DNA of 64,000 nucleotides, taken from contig NC_079878.1 in NCBI RefSeq assembly GCF_029227915.1, positions 24,205,501-24,269,500 on the forward strand. The letters run 5' to 3'. Position numbers and translations under genes: made by a program. Below, one piece after another: positions 47,348-61,320 of the stretch (positions within the stretch are counted from its first letter, which is position 1; every line of letters starts with the position of its first letter). The notes under the pieces were generated by a model that was not told the origin of the DNA, searched no databases, and saw nothing but the letters and a program-made list of their open reading frames with translations. This DNA comes from Hydractinia symbiolongicarpus (Eukaryota > Cnidaria > Hydrozoa > Anthoathecata > Hydractiniidae).

Positions 47348-49031
47348 TTAAAGACAATTAATTCTGATATATATAACAACCAAATCTCGGTATAGGTTAC
47401 AGGAAATAGCAAAGCATGGTTTTCCTTTGTTACGTGGTGTCATTCGTAAAGAGTGAGTCAATGACATAAATTTTTAGGACTTACGTACAGGGCACTTTGG
47501 TTAAAGTCATAAGCGCACGAAATGAACACATAAAATTTGGTACTTATTACAAAAATACATGCATTGTTCATCAAGTTACCCCATATGGCTAATATGGAAG
47601 ACTTCTTCGTAAAAAGCATCAGAAACTTTTTACATGTGGATTACTTTTACATTAACAAAAATTAAAAATTTGAAGATAAACTTTTGCGATTTTGTCATCA
47701 TTAGTTTTCAAATTTCTCGCTGGAAATTTTTAAGGTTTAAAACCCATGTCCCACAGTAACTTTTTCGTTCTTATCCTAATGTTAATACATGAGCTATGCA
47801 AGAACTTTTGCAGGAAAATAAAAACACATCAAGAGAAAAAGTTTGTTATTAAAATATTATAAATAATTTCAAACCGATTAGTCCCTGCAGCCATTTTGGT
47901 GTCAGTTGTATGAAAATGCTAAAACTATACTAAGAAAAGACCTATTACTTCAGTAAAAATTGAAATAATGACTTGAAACTTAGTATTACATGTTTTTAGA
48001 CCAGTTTGATGAAATGAACCCAAAAATTTTTTTACTACTATCGTAGTTTCTGAGTTCTTAATTTTGACCATTTTTGGAGACGCTGATAAACTTTTTTTGA
48101 CAGCATATCAATTTTGACAAGCCATGTGTGCAGAAAACATTCTAAATTATTCTCAGGATTAAAAATAATTCAAACAGATAAAATGTGTCTCAGGTTTAGG
48201 ACCAAATACCTTATCCAGCTCAGAGAAAGTGGGAATGTGCTTCTAAAGCACAGTGCTAAATACAATCTAAATTTTATGCCGTATAAATACAAAGTGGTTA
48301 GAAAGTTATTTTTTTGTCCACCTGGACCTGCAACACGTTTACTTTGTACTAATCGCCCAGTCTGCTGCCACTCACAATTAATTTTTGAATATCCACAGGA
48401 ACTTTTTATGCAAAATGAAAAATGCTAAGCAACTGTATTTGCTTTGCAGAAGTAACAATAGGCTTATCTTTATCATAAGTCCTGTGAATGTTGGTTTATG
48501 AAAAAGATATTGTTAATGCTATAAGTGCTCCACTGGATTTGTAACACATTACACTAAGTGTCCTCCATGTGAAACAGCTTAATTATTTAATAACAAATGT
48601 GCCCTGGAGTGCTGGCATGGTACTGGCTAGGTAGCTTAAAATCACAAAATAAATATTATCCAGATGTGACCATCCCTCATCATCAGACATCAGAAAGGCG
48701 TTTCTGTTCTTTACTTCTCATTGTGGGTTACCTCAAATTCTTGTAAATCCAATGAAAAAAAATTACTTGAGAATTCTTTTTCTTTCCCTTGCACTACTCA
48801 TGGCATTTCTTTGCATGTCTTTAGTTTCAAGCCACAATCCCTGAGCTTCCAACCCCGTCTCAGTCACAAGTTTCAGCGCTAGCCAAAATGACGGACAACG
48901 TTGAGGAACTCTGGGTAATTTTGAAAAAATGTGGTTCTGCCTTATCATTTTCAGATATTTGCTGCTGATATCAGCAAATTTTGGCCCTCGGGTGCCACAC
49001 CTCCGTACATATAGGAGTTAATTATCTTTAA
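47348..49031. mobile_element. nonautonomous relative of the TTAA two-gene transposon
   Basis: Bounded by TTAA on both sides (47348-47351, 49028-49031). Its ends match those of the 5.9-kb element at 55433-61320: left AGACAATTAATTCTGATATA versus AGATAATTAACTCCTATATG; right TATAGGAGTTAATTATCT identical. About 120 bp next to the right end (48915-49031) is nearly the same as 61204-61320, and GGAAATAGCAAA follows both left ends. The interior differs, with only a 104-residue open stretch at 48114-48428 that I do not recognise. Confidence 0.8.
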
Positions 49032-54169: not shown

Positions 54170-54655
54170 TCAAAACTTTTCTGTTAATAATCCAAAAATT
54201 CCTGATCCAATCCCTCCGATAGCACCGATCCATCCCAAGATGTAACTCCATCCATATTTTACGTAGTCGGTATTTATGTCTATCTTACTGCTATAGATTA
54301 TCAAGGCCAGTGCCATGCAACCTGCAGCTGCGAATAAAAAAAGAGATGCGAACCATCCTTTAACTTTATCAGAAACCATTCCTAAAATCGACATCAGTAT
54401 ACCACCAACAGCAGCTAAACATGATATGATGGCGAATGCGCGAACAGTTTTGAACCAATCGTTAAGTTTAAGGCCAGCTAAGTCATAAATATCATCAATG
54501 GAAACACAAGTGATCATACTACAGCTTTTCCACAATCCTCGTCCAACATCACTCTGTAATTTACTCACAATCCAGTAGTTTCCGCCTGTGCAAGCGGCAA
54601 GAAAGATGAATGCACCAATGCTACCAACAATCAGCAGAATTTTAGCCACGCCCAT
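54170..54655 (-). CDS. claudin/PMP22-like four-transmembrane protein
   Basis: 161 residues from the ATG at 54655; an AG acceptor after a pyrimidine stretch about 10 bp upstream suggests a spliced 5' UTR. Hydrophobic segments at about 4-21, 73-95, 99-121 and 136-157 flank a first extracellular loop with the family signature: W28, then G40-L41-W42, C45 and C50 (the W-GLW-C-C pattern). The short cytoplasmic tail (LLTEKF) has no PDZ-binding end typical of tight-junction claudins. Likely plasma-membrane junction or PMP22/EMP/claudin superfamily protein. The coding region is intronless. A TTTATT at 54126-54131 provides AATAAA on the minus strand 40 bp after the stop. Exact subfamily unresolved. Confidence 0.85.
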   Translation of the reverse strand: MGVAKILLIVGSIGAFIFLAACTGGNYWIVSKLQSDVGRGLWKSCSMITCVSIDDIYDLAGLKLNDWFKTVRAFAIISCLAAVGGILMSILGMVSDKVKGWFASLFLFAAAGCMALALIIYSSKIDINTDYVKYGWSYILGWIGAIGGIGSGIFGLLTEKF

Positions 54656-54719
54656 TGTACAACTAACTAAAAATAAAAAAAATAAAGGTTCATCATATAA
54701 CAAATTTCAAATCTTAAAA

Positions 54720-55071: not shown

Positions 55072-55346
55072 CATACTCGTCCCCAGAGCTCCTTTAACTA
55101 AGTCCTTTGGAGTCATCATCAAAATAAATTCATGATCTTTCACTGTACTGTTAGATCAGTTTTCTCAAGTTGTGCTAAATCACAAATCCAATTAGGTCCC
55201 ACAAACGATAAGTCAAATTAAAAACAGCTAGTTTGCAAGCACAACAGCAGGTAATCGAGTCACCAAAACATTCCACATATAGTGGCATATTTTGATCACG
55301 TGATCAGACAGGGTTGTAATTTCAAAGAGCTCTGGGGACGAGAATA
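55072..55346. mobile_element. 275-bp MITE with CTCGTCCCCAGAGCTC ends
   Basis: Left ACTCGTCCCCAGAGCTCCTT and right (inward) TTCTCGTCCCCAGAGCTCTT are about 20-bp inverted repeats. No coding capacity. It ends 87 bp before the TTAA element starts. Confidence 0.75.
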
Positions 55347-55772
55347 CGTCGTAAGTTCAAATTCGAATTTTAAGAGATAAGGCCATTGTAAAAAAGATAA
55401 TGTAATTAATGAGATAATGTAATTCTGTTAACTTAAAGATAATTAACTCCTATATGTATCGAGCTCAAATCTTCGTCTAGGGGCTTGGAAATAGCAAAAT
55501 ACGATTTATTCGCGTAATAACGGAATACGCAAAGAATGAACGATAATACCACTTTTTGAGACTTTATGTACAGGATGTTTAGGTCGCATTGATATAGAAA
55601 ACACCTGTTTCGCTTGGGTACATAACATTTTGTACTTAATAAATTAGAAACGCTGGAAGGTTCAAAAAGGGACAACTTTGACGTGGTTTGACGTTGTTCT
55701 TGAACAGGGAGTTTAACCAAGGCTACCCTAGTCTGTATATATATATGTATATTTGAATAAAAACTTGCTATT

Positions 55773-57528
55773 ATGTGGGATATACCAAACATGCAAGATA
55801 ATGATGACGAGGATGATATACCCATTGGTAATTTGTTTGCAAGAAGGATGTTATCCAGGCCCACAACAACAAGAAGGTAGCTATAGCTAAAACAGTATTT
55901 ATAGCTAGCTAGATGTAGGTAGAGCCAATTTAATACAATACATCACTAGTCAAATGTAATATAAAAAATATATATATTCCAATAATAAATTTAGTTAGCT
56001 ATGACATACATAAAACTAGTTACATAGCTAGGTAGTTAACATATTGGTAGCTTATATTTAGCTAAACAAAAATGATTATTTATAGTTTATTGTATAATTT
56101 ATAGTTACAGAAATCCAAAGTCGTCAAACAACTCCGTAACTGACTATGCTGATCAAGATTTGTCAAGTGAGATCAATGCCATAATTGGTGGCGCCCCAGT
56201 TATTGAAACAAAAAGTAGTTGCAAAGGTTCCTGCCAAAAAGGGTGTGACTGTCGTAAAATTGGGGTAAAATGCACAGTTGGATTTTGCCTATGTGATCCA
56301 TGTAAATGCAAAAACATAAATTTCCAAGTAACAATAAAATTGTTTACCTTGCTACCCATTTTGGTAAAAGTACGTATACACTTGAAGACTAAATTACAAC
56401 GCACTTACATTATATAGCGTAAAAATTATCAATGTGATTATGGTATGGCTTTGCTTTTAGGCTGCTGTAGTTAGTTCAAATTTAGTAGATGGGAATAGTT
56501 ACAATGATACAACTAGTAATGGATCAACAGAACCAGAAGTCAGTATATACATTATAGCTTGCAATAAAAAACTTAAATTATAAGACTAATGTAGTAACAT
56601 TTTCAATATATATATATATAGGATGCAGTGGAAAATATTTCCTATAAGTGCAAAGGTCGTTGTATCCGATGTCCTTGCAGAAATAATGGCAGCAATTGTG
56701 ATGATTAGTTTTGTGCTTGTGACATAACAAAATGTAAAAATAAAAACGAAATAGTAAGTACCAGCACATTTCTGTGTATAATTCCTATAAAACAAAATAT
56801 AAAAAAGTGTTAATAAGTATTTATATGTGTATATGGAATATGGTAGGTCACATCGAAAGGTCAAAACGAAAATATATTAGACCAGCTGATGTTGGTGATT
56901 TATTATCAAAAAGATCAGCAGACACAAAGGATGAATGTGTTGTATGTATTTTTTTTTAATTATATACTTTAACCTTATCCACATCCATTATTAGTATATA
57001 TATTAAATTTATATTGGCATTAAATTTCAGAAGTATTGTGAAAGTCTTCAAAGCGAACAATTAAGAGAAATATTAGCTGATATGGCAGAAAAATCACCGA
57101 GCACTTGGAAATTAGTGAAATCTGACATTGAGGGCCATGGTAATAGGAGAAGGACAGAGGACACCCCAGGCTGGTGTGCATGTGGCCAATGTATAGAAAT
57201 GGAAGAAGAAAGGGATCAAGTTTGCTGCCAAAATAATATAAAGAACCATGAAAATGCTGAATTCAGGCATCTTATTCTTGATGACAGGGTTCTAGACCTT
57301 GCAATGCGTGGAAACAGTGATTGGCTTCAGTACCCATTTGATCCTGAAGAAAATGCTTGCTGGCGATACACTGCCTATCGGCAGTACATAATGTGGTTTT
57401 GGGGACACTTAGGTAGTGGTAATAGAAAAGTCATACCCTCTTGCATTTTACGAAAAATCAGAGAACGTTTTCCTTCTGTAGATGGAATTTACAGAGGTTT
57501 TATGGATAGGTATGAGGCTTTACGATAA
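55773..57528 (+). pseudogene. cysteine-rich CXC-like repeats plus P2X7 ballast-like domain protein
   Basis: Likely exons: 55773-55876, 56111-56327, 56461-56538, 56622-56753, 56847-56941, 57031-57528. After an acidic start come two Cys-rich repeats (CKGSCQKGCDCRKIGVKC; then YKCKGRCIRCPCRNNGSNC) of the form C-x3-C-x2-3-C-x-C-x6-C, like the zinc-binding CXC modules of tesmin/TSO1 proteins. The last exon matches the cytoplasmic ballast of P2X7 receptors in order: GWCACGQC, a VCC pair, WRYTAYRQYIMWFWG, then IPSCILRKIRERFP and YRGF. No P2X channel domain is present. Lesions: TAG at 56706-56708 within the second Cys repeat, and exon 5 is one base out of frame with exon 4. The role in the element is unknown; a zinc/nucleotide-binding accessory protein is inference. 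Confidence 0.78.
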
Positions 57529-57587
57529 AATATAAAATAATGAAAAATATAGGCAGAAAAACTACACTACATACCAACAGATAAGAG

Positions 57588-60500
57588 TTATTGGAGTTTC
57601 ATTTCTTCTCTTGCTTGATGTTTTTCAAGTAATAATTCCATGGAAGGAGCAGTTGTTGCAGCAATATTTTGACGTAATGCTTTAGTACATTCTCGTCCAA
57701 TCCCTACGCGATTAACATTTCCCCTGTCAACATGACGTCTCCATAGTATTTCTGCCATGAGTCCTATAATGCACATATATAGATATACATTTTTATTCCT
57801 TTTTTATATATACATATATTTTACCATATGTTTTAGTTTTACATAATTTTATTATTGTACAACTATTGTAAAGATAATAAACGCTAGTTGAACTTAGAAC
57901 ATACTTCGTATATAGATATAGTCCTTTGGTTTAGGTACTGCTACTAAAAACCATTGCTTTGTCCTCTTTCCATATCTGCGGACATAAACAAGTGAACCAT
58001 CTTTTTTTTGAAGCTGTCCTCGATTTAAATGACCGTTAAAATCCAAATATGCTAATTGATGTCTGGTGATGTAAGCATCATTTTTGTACCCAATGCGCTT
58101 TGGACAGTAGGCTAACACTAAGTTATGAAATGCCTAAATAAAAGTACAAATCTTAGTAAGAAAACTCCTGTCCACATAGCGTATTTTTTTAATTTATTAC
58201 ATATACAACATGTAACATAAAATATATTACAGTAACTTTTTATAGCAAAATATATCAGTGTTAGTAACTCCTTTCACAATGTTTACCTCTAAAAGACCTG
58301 TGTGTCCATTTTTGGTGTAATATGCAAAGCTTTTTAGCCAAGAACTTTTCATGACATGCTTTCGAATAATTTCCATAGATGGTCCTGTTGGATCTAACCA
58401 AGTTTTTCCTTCAGTAGGTTCTTCCATAGGTTCGTGTTCGCATTGTAAATGGTCACCAGTTATATGCTTAAGTAAACGCATCCAAAGAACTCGCATTTTT
58501 AATTCATCCTCTTCACAGTGTGAGCAACAATACCAAAAGTGATTCCTTATGGGTGCCAACCAAGGATTAATAAGTGGCTGCAGTTGTTTTTTCTTGGAGA
58601 CCTATAGTTCATATTATATTTGTACACTATTGTAGTTTGTATAATATATTTCTGATGGGTATAAAAAAGTTATGTTATATACCTCCTGAGAGATTTTTTT
58701 TGTTATTTTTCCTGCCTTATGCCATACATCTAAACTGTGATGTGTTGCTTTCAATATTGGTTCTTTTTCTACAAGTTAATTCAATAGAATGTTGAGAACT
58801 GCTAGAAAAAAAGTTTAAAAATATATATATTTAAAAATCCTGACTTACTCATCAAGCACTTTATAGTTGCATGAGCATCAGTGCATATTTCATCAATTCT
58901 GAGATCCTTTTTGCTGATTAAGTATTTCATACCTTTCATAAATAAGTGTACTTCTAACTTCGTGGACTGAAGATTGACCTATCAATATTTTTTTTAATTT
59001 ACAAGTGTTTTGAATTACTCCTGCAATCAAAATAGCAAATATCTTACTACCTCTCTTTTGTCACCAAATTGCATCATAACTAATTTTTTAGATTGATGAT
59101 CCATGAAGGTATAGGTACCCTTGGTAGCAGACCAACCAGGGGAATCTAGCTGGCAGTCACCACAAATGATAACTTCGTCTTGATGGGACATGCTTTCAAT
59201 AATGTCATGTTCTATATCATCATAAGTCTGTTGCACTGCTGGACTTACATATAATTTTTGATTTTTTTAAAAGGTTGAAATATTAGGTTTTCCAAGTTGG
59301 ACGAATTTGCAAAATCTTGAAAATTGATTTATTTGACCACCTGACAATACTAAAGCACTTTCGACGATATAATTAATAACGAACCCTGAACCATATATGG
59401 GAGATGAATACCAAAAGTCTTTGTGACCTTTTAGACATTTCCAAGTTAACTTGATAGTATATCCTGAACATAATGTGAATATGTTAAGTTTGCTATTTAT
59501 TTAGCAATAAAACATATATTATATATAGAGAGGATCTGTTCATACCTATATAAAAGCTCTCTATGTTAACAATTTGTGCATTACAGTCTTTTTCATGACA
59601 GGTATCCCCTAACAAGTATTCTAACTGTCTAGTTGATGCAATGCATTTAGGATCGTCAATTTTTTGAAATTCGTCATCCAAACTTCCATAATTACACCTA
59701 GAACACCAATACTGTTGGCAAAACACTTGACAAACATTTGCACAATTCATATTTTTTTAAATAAATATACAGTATAGAAGGGACTGGGAGGGATTCGAAC
59801 CCTCGATTAACGCTAAGCGTTTTCTCTACCAATTGAGATACACCAGCCCTATAGCCATAACTTAATTTAAATATTTACCTAATATATGGATCTGATGCCA
59901 AGTCAGGATATTCAATTTCATCATCACCAATGTCTTCCTGCCCTTCTGTTTCTTGGGCAATTAATTCTTCAACATCATCCAATGTCACATCCAAGGCTGA
60001 AACATCATCGTGGCTACAAGTAAAATATATATAAATACACAAATGATTATGTATATACCTTATTAACCCATAAACAATCTATATATACCTTGTATCATTT
60101 CCAATATCTTGGTCATCATTAAAATTTATTTTAGTTGGCTTTGCAGATCTAATTTAATAAAATAAAGCTTCTAAGAAAGCATTCAATTAGTAAGGACAAA
60201 CATAATTAAAATTAATGTGTACCTTTTAAAACAGATAGAATGCTTTGGTTCTAAATGTGGTGTTGATTGGTTTAAAGGCCTAGTGAAAAATAAAATATGT
60301 ATGAAAACATTGGCAAAAGACTTGCACCTGCAAACAGTAAAGCTTTGAAATCACATATAGCTATATATATATCATGCTTTCCAGAAACAAATCAGCCAGC
60401 TACTCTTGTAGCTATATAATTTACAAATTTGCTGTATATACTTTAATATTTCCATCGATGGGAAATTTGAATCTTTTTTAGTACATTCAATCTCCATTTC

Positions 60501-61122
60501 AGTTTTAGCCTTTTTTGAGCTAACAATAACAACACGTGGTGTATCATTAGGACCAGTTATTGAAGACTTTGTGTTACTGCTGCTATCATATGTTGGCGAA
60601 AGTAAGCATGAGAGAGGTGAAGTAAAAGAAGTCGATGAATCTTTAGACGAGCTACTTGATGACTGTCTTTTCTTTTTTAGTACTACAACTTCACCTAAAT
60701 AAATAAAATAAAATTTTATGTAACTTTCTATAGCTAGCTAGAAGCCATCATGTCAATAACTATTTTTATAAGATATCTGATGTTTCTTTTTACTTTTATA
60801 CTAACTAAACTTAGCTGGCTAGGCAGTCTGACAATCTGATTAAAGTTAGATCACAGTTTGCAATTATTTTCTTACTGCATGGAGTATGCACCATTCTCTT
60901 TGAAGAGTTTAGTAACATAATACTGTTTCTGGAATCTTTATTGTGGTGTGCCCTCAAAACTTCATGAACCCAAGTGAAGAAATCTTGGTTGTATAAAAAC
61001 TTTAACTCTTCTTTTAGACGTATTAAGTTCTCGTAGCACTCCTTTGCCTTCTCTCCAGTTCCAAGGTAAACTCTATACTTGCTTCCCCTAACAATCTTTG
61101 GTGCTTTTGAGGAGCTAGCCAT
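57588..61122 (-). pseudogene. DDE-type transposase-like gene of the TTAA element
   Basis: Exons, right to left: 61122-60876 (ATG MASSSKAP), 60694-60442, 60279-60223, 60148-60089, 60013-59879, then 59750-59546, 59463-59051, 58978-58849, 58768-58683, 58601-58287, 58133-57905, 57763-57588. Phases agree except between 59879 and 59750, where no usable acceptor is visible. The N-terminal part is Ser-rich then acidic. The core has Cys pairs (CQQYWCSRC, WKCLKGHKDFWY), GDCQLDSPGW (59131-59163, first Asp), ICTDAHATIK (58871-58888, second Asp), LDVWHKAGKITKK, FWYCCSHCEEDEL ... CEHEP (a C/H insertion), GHTGLLE (probable Glu) and YCPKRIGYKNDAYITRHQLAYLD. This matches a cnidarian-wide family of transposase-like proteins I recall. 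TAA at 59267-59269 interrupts exon 7. Dead copy, otherwise well preserved. Confidence 0.8.
59781..59849 (-). repeat. tRNA-like insertion (Ala-AGC-like) in an intron of the transposase gene
   Basis: Minus strand: 7-bp acceptor GGGCTGG/CCAGTCC, D arm TCTC-AATTGGTA-GAGA, T arm GAGGG-TTCGAAT-CCCTC, with intact B box. The anticodon arm (AACGCTTAGCGTT) is two bases too short for a normal loop and 5' spacing is two bases long, so it is a pseudo-tRNA or minimal SINE. TATAG occurs on both sides (59773-59777, 59850-59854) as a likely target duplication. Confidence 0.6.
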
Positions 61123-61320
61123 GTTGAAACCCTAGCAGTTTGACATGAACTATCGCACGCTTCAGTGCTGGCCAAAGCTATCAAAACTACACTTAGCCCT
61201 GGGTAATTTTAAAAAAAATGTGGTTTTGCCTTATGATTTTCAGATTTTTGCTGCTGATATCAGCATATTTTGGGCCTCGAGTGCCACACCTCCGTATATA
61301 TAGGAGTTAATTATCTTTAA

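Follow-up and report, generated by a model that had tools for sequence, protein, structure and literature searches.

Layout and termini of the element

The locus comprises a 5,888-bp unit (55433-61320) that runs from one TTAA to another and encloses two convergent multi-exon genes, one on the plus strand encoding a KolX-like protein with a P2X7-type ballast domain and one on the minus strand encoding a putative Kolobok-type transposase (Table 1). All coordinates refer to the window, that is, the whole 64-kb stretch of DNA that was analysed. Both genes lie wholly inside the element ends, and their stop codons are separated by 59 bp (57529-57587). The splice sites and start codons of both were chosen from the sequence, and the gene models were built without transcripts.

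The inverted ends match perfectly over 23 bp including the TTAA, at 25 of 26 bases over 26 bp, and more loosely (91%) over 32-bp arms. TTAA target sites occupy 55433-55436 and 61317-61320, and immediately inside them the element opens with AG and closes with CT. Searches with the 23-bp end, allowing up to three mismatches, recovered three matches in the real window against a mean of 0.00 in 100 shuffles of the window. When the 663 TTAA sites of the window were paired at distances of 1-15 kb, 55433/61320 ranked at the top with 21/22, and the runner-up (score 18) joined the left end of a second unit, 47348-49031, to the right end of the 5,888-bp element. The pair 55433/61320 was likewise the sole TTAA inverted pair listed in a scan requiring at least 14/16 at a spacing of 60-12,000 bp, for which a reversed, uncomplemented control at the same settings returned 0 pairs. 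The TTAA-flanked inverted termini and the two convergent multi-exon genes put forward in the preliminary description are thus both borne out, the latter as models of six exons on the plus strand and 12 on the minus strand.

Table 1. Features of the TTAA-bounded element and of the related unit in the window
Feature	Position	Strand	Details
Left terminal inverted repeat	55433..55455	+	TTAA followed by AGATAATTAACTCCTATAT; perfect inverted match with 61298-61320
KolX-like gene, 6 modelled exons	55773..57528	+	Exons 55773-55876, 56111-56327, 56461-56538, 56622-56753, 56847-56941, 57031-57528; modelled on GT/AG sites and frames
First cysteine module	56220..56309	+	CX3CX3CXCX6CX4CXCX2CXC; in exon 2
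Second cysteine module	56649..56735	+	In exon 4; interrupted by an in-frame TAG
Last KolX exon, P2X7 ballast (P2RX7_C) domain	57031..57528	+	Pfam PF20478 and a P2X7 PDB chain
Kolobok-type transposase gene, 12 modelled exons	57588..61122	-	Exons 61122-60876, 60694-60442, 60279-60223, 60148-60089, 60013-59879, 59725-59546, 59463-59051, 58966-58849, 58768-58683, 58601-58287, 58133-57905, 57763-57588
tRNA-like sequence in transposase intron 5	59782..59847	-	Rfam RF00005, 38.4 bits (gathering 29)
Right terminal inverted repeat with TTAA	61298..61320	-	Sequence identical to 49009-49031
Second unit of the same family, probably non-autonomous	47348..49031	+	1,684 bp; TTAA at both ends; orientation as in the 5,888-bp element

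A second unit with the same ends

One of the three matches to the 23-bp end lies outside the 5,888-bp element, on the minus strand at 49009-49031, where it closes a second unit separated from the larger one by 6.4 kb. The diverged left end of this unit, at 47348, was seen in the TTAA pairing and was recovered with an end pattern widened to fit. TTAA stands at 47348 and at 49028, and the AG...CT termini recur here. The right ends of the two units are 92.6% identical over 122 bp and the left ends 71% over 66 bp (E 0.007), the divergence being far greater at the left. With the inverted repeat counted, the similarity extends over ~170-240 bp at each end. When the ends were aligned without it, left against left scored 28 and right against right 86, compared with 20 and 18 for the best of 500 single-base shuffles each; the crosswise alignments scored 9.5 and 15.0, values matched by 436 and 11 of the 500 shuffles, respectively. 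The same ends on 47348-49031, together with this left-to-left and right-to-right similarity beyond that of the shuffles, indicate that the ends move as a family. A tblastn search of the unit with the element proteins gave no match at E up to 0.05, and we interpret 47348-49031 as probably a non-autonomous relative devoid of detectable gene remains.

Other features of the window

Several further features accompany these two units. A long minus-strand reading frame at 20624-22585 matches the reverse transcriptase profile RVT_1 (E 7.2e-29) and probably belongs to a non-LTR-type retroelement; more long reading frames adjoin it, up to 24782. Also on the minus strand, 25044-27584 matches RT_RNaseH at an E of 1.1e-5, barely above the cut-off, and has a sub-threshold reverse transcriptase match, while the frame that follows has a sub-threshold match to the Flp_C recombinase (E 0.0019); this layout recalls that of a DIRS-like retroelement. 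Closer to the 5,888-bp element, ~0.7 kb outside it, a minus-strand reading frame at 54170-54706 belongs to the Claudin/PMP22 family (PF00822, E 9.9e-16); claudins being animal proteins, the host is likely an animal. Directly left of the element, 55073-55097 and 55321-55345 are the arms of a 25-bp inverted repeat (88%) and enclose 223 bp, possibly a small mobile element.

The transposase gene

In the spliced frames of the minus-strand gene, the motifs GDCQLDSPG (first D), TDAH (second D), DVWH (DxxH), a zinc finger and HTGLLE (last E) follow one another in this order. They were read by eye rather than by profile and set against the description of Kolobok by Kojima and Bao 2022 (PMC9587614), in which the transposases carry a C/DxxH motif between the second D and the last E, and almost all lineages but Kolobok1 have a zinc finger between C/DxxH and the last E. 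The corresponding finger here, of the form CX2C...CXH by eye, lies between DVWH and the last E in exon 10 (58601-58287). The same description places a CCHC finger after the first D in KolobokP, E, D and 5 and in a few solitary families; inspection by eye revealed none between GDCQLDSPG and TDAH.

Among profiles, the top Pfam match was the Mutator-like transposase, which stayed below the cut-off with the initial query (E 5.3e-4; 19.5 versus 26.5 bits) as well as with a corrected one (E 4.7e-4; 19.7 bits). For the N-terminal part, Pfam gave only the sub-threshold matches DUF1899 (E 0.0084) and NAM-associated (E 0.54), and NCBIfam gave nothing above cut-off for the C-terminal part. The protein as a whole presumably resembles vertebrate Kolobok transposases. 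Intron 5 contains a tRNA-like sequence whose anticodon arm appears, by eye, too short; ARAGORN reported no tRNA anywhere in the window, and the sequence is probably a tRNA-derived fragment.

The KolX-like gene: cysteine modules and ballast domain

The plus-strand gene joins two N-terminal cysteine modules to a C-terminal ballast domain. The modules are akin to each other, with an alignment score of 93 against 70 for the top of 2,000 shuffles, and a tblastn comparison of one with the other gives 53% identity over 34 columns (E 4e-4 in one direction, 0.033 in the other). We take the cysteine spacing of both to resemble that of the Tesmin/TSO1-type CXC domain, but the likeness does not extend to Pfam, where a search at E up to 10 returned no CXC family and only NABP (E 0.18, below its own cut-off). 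The exon carrying the first module matched 0 chains in the PDB, and NCBIfam yielded nothing above cut-off for the N-terminal part of the protein. Given the Pfam and PDB results, "CXC" is best read as a mere likeness of pattern. The double module is possibly a new detail of KolX.

The last exon matches the Pfam P2RX7_C profile with an E of 8.9e-25 (88.2 bits; cut-off 23.5) and the best P2X7 chain in the PDB with an E of 2.3e-12. The alignment, in which 40 of 120 residues are identical, spans only 469-595 of P2X7, and the channel part finds no match in KolX. A single-sequence AlphaFold prediction of this exon (165 aa) had a mean pLDDT of 40.5, too low for a fold comparison. Relative to the consensus of Rump et al. 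2020 (PMC7016195), six of the seven ballast cysteines align in KolX, namely C477, C479, C482, C498, C499 and C572. For the remaining one, C506, which is counted among the conserved ballast residues (PMC7016195), there is no counterpart, although the stretch is gapped and its placement uncertain; within the same uncertainly placed stretch, E496, reported as conserved across Metazoa in that study, aligns with Q. Cluster 1 (PxWCxCx2C) is complete, cluster 2 retains just the CC pair, and cluster 3 deviates from the consensus at two positions (I for C/S and R for S/T). R546 and R578 are kept, whereas H547, R574 and K583 are not; according to the same study, R546 and R578 are the only GDP-contacting residues conserved in its invertebrate set. 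KolX further agrees at six of the seven highly conserved positions of PMC7016195 (A549, Y550, Y553, V568, P570 and C572). At the seventh, W559, both the KolX and the P2X7 rows have G as numbered here, and both have W three residues before. In the cysteines and in R546 and R578, the KolX ballast is close to the invertebrate pattern of that study.

With regard to protein content, the preliminary description had proposed transposase-like acidic motifs in one gene and CXC-like cysteine repeats combined with a P2X7 ballast-like domain in the other. The motif order and the ballast domain are upheld by the present analysis; the repeats are real and mutually similar, while their assignment to CXC did not find a match in Pfam. 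The in-frame stops, the tRNA-like sequence and the unit at 47348-49031 are additions to that description.

State of the copy

In the splice forms modelled here, each gene of the 5,888-bp copy has an in-frame stop and an ill-fitting exon junction. In the transposase gene, exon 7 has an in-frame TAA (59267-59269), and the phases of exons 5 and 6 are incompatible, the intron between them being the one with the tRNA-like sequence. Chiefly because of this stop and this ill-fitting junction, the copy is probably non-autonomous now. In the KolX-like gene, exon 4 contains an in-frame TAG (56706-56708) when it extends to its strong donor, and in that form the phases of exons 4 and 5 are incompatible. 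Use of a donor at 56698 would skip the TAG, along with the greater part of what remains of the second module, and would yield an uninterrupted frame from exon 4 onwards, but the splice context of this donor is weak compared with the gtaagt donor at 56754. Since the donor context is weak and the skipped part still resembles the first module, damage to the KolX gene is the more likely reading, and continued production of KolX through the donor at 56698 a less likely alternative. We are less sure of the state of this gene than of that of the transposase. Overall, we favour the view that the copy is dead or dying, mainly on account of the transposase; as an alternative, the stops and junction misfits may partly reflect assembly errors or unusual splicing.

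Assignment to Kolobok and alternative explanations

According to Kojima and Bao (PMC9587614), the Kol0 lineage of Kolobok encodes a DDD/E transposase together with KolX, a protein with the fold of the P2X7 cytoplasmic ballast, and ranges over vertebrates, annelids, cnidarians and sponges. For the Kolobok-1_XT type, that study cites Kapitonov and Jurka 2007. Considering its ends, motif order and gene pair, we regard the 5,888-bp unit with high confidence as a degraded full-length copy of a Kol0-type DNA transposon of the Kolobok superfamily. That the termini and both genes form one mobile unit, as the preliminary description had suggested, gains support from the recurrence of the ends on the TTAA-flanked unit at 47348-49031 and from the publication of this gene pair as a transposon type. 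The same description had known of no well-described transposon with such a pair; this part falls away, as the pair was already reported for Kol0 in 2022 (PMC9587614), and because of that report the element is another case of a described kind.

The TTAA at both ends is also consistent with a piggyBac-type element, and KolX-like proteins occur in a few piggyBac families (PMC9587614). According to the same source, however, those proteins are without most of the seven conserved cysteines, six of which are kept here, and Kolobok differs from piggyBac by its 5'-RR...YY-3' termini. The AG...CT termini of both units satisfy this rule, and the terminal AG next to TTAA is also found in the Xenopus Kolobok paper (PMC6004289), which, in the portion available to us, does not name KolX. 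The transposase also argues against piggyBac, an assignment that we judge very improbable: it has DVWH and a zinc finger ahead of its last E, and Pfam listed no piggyBac model up to an E of 1.

It might further be supposed that two host genes with no link to each other, or a nanor-type ballast gene of the host, merely happen to lie between chance inverted repeats: ballast proteins are known as stand-alone genes, e.g. nanor (PMC7016195), and the gene-bearing copy in hand, from the 64-kb window, is a single one. Such an accident is exceedingly improbable given ends that are far beyond chance and recur on the TTAA-flanked 47348-49031 unit, and given two genes, one of them transposase-like, that sit entirely within those ends. 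A composite origin, in which a transposase-only Kolobok later received a KolX-like gene by insertion, could draw on the existence of Kolobok lineages with the transposase alone or with a different accessory protein (PMC9587614). Yet nothing in the convergent layout, with its closely spaced stops, visibly points to inner ends, the scan at the 14/16 cut-off listed no further inverted pair bounded by TTAA within the element, and the pairing of transposase and KolX is described for the whole Kol0 lineage (PMC9587614), all of which makes this history extremely unlikely.

A possible mechanism and the role of KolX

If the unit is a Kol0 element, as we prefer, its DDD/E transposase would bind the ends, cut at the TTAA and insert the element into a new TTAA, as expected from the Kolobok superfamily and from the ends themselves. 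Going by the superfamily, non-autonomous units such as 47348-49031 would be moved in trans by the same transposase. More tentatively, KolX may be an accessory factor stabilised by zinc: its N-terminal cysteine modules might contact DNA, possibly at the element ends, and its ballast might bind proteins or guanine nucleotides and in this way help or regulate the transposase. The preliminary description had likewise proposed a part for this protein in transposition or its regulation. We found no paper testing the function of KolX in the open-licence literature. It is the cysteine modules alone that faintly suggest that KolX could aid transposition by contacting DNA, and their position ahead of the ballast offers a testable hint of such contact. 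A more specific version, in which KolX would be a two-part, element-specific factor with tandem cysteine modules that bind the transposon's own ends and a ballast that couples them to the transposase, strikes us as rather unlikely. Were it true, the tail of the P2X7 receptor would trace back to an adaptor that bound transposon ends.

Comparison with known systems

Searches beyond the window used the transposase, the ballast and the 23-bp end. In viral contigs, the ballast and the exact 23-bp end gave 0 matches. In genome contigs, the transposase gave 11 pattern matches and 0 relatives, and the ballast gave 19 pattern matches, one of which was accepted, covering 18 residues in a Desulfovibrio record (E 6e-6). 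This match was then rejected as chance, the reading frame beyond the 18 residues being without ballast features. KolobokP was also considered and set aside: direct repeats longer than 36 bp were absent from the 20 largest of the 27 repeat families listed, so that the long terminal direct repeats of that lineage are lacking in this set, and the second gene encodes a ballast protein rather than a His-Me finger nuclease.

Among systems that share the ballast, the cytoplasmic tail of the P2X7 receptor has the same domain as KolX, the resemblance stopping short of the channel part. Nanor and other ballast (ZCD) proteins (PMC7016195) likewise carry a C-terminal ballast, and KolX is like them in its complete cluster 1, its cluster 3 only two positions off and its R546 and R578; unlike KolX, they are mostly short and have no other known domains. 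That study reports the ballast in many animals, and the string "transpos" is absent from its main text. Kojima and Bao (PMC9587614) derive P2X7, and likely nanor as well, from KolX, and propose that the P2X7 tail was acquired from a KolX gene.

The closest counterpart is Kol0 of the Kolobok-1_XT type, with which the element shares the TTAA target, the RR...YY termini, a DDD/E transposase with DxxH, the KolX ballast and the occurrence in animals. It differs in the two N-terminal cysteine modules, which go unmentioned in the text of PMC9587614 as far as it was available, in the lack of a counterpart to C506 and in the damage to the copy. By uniting the termini, the gene pair and a probably non-autonomous relative within 64 kb, the locus adds a clear example to the proposal that the ballast comes from Kolobok (PMC9587614).
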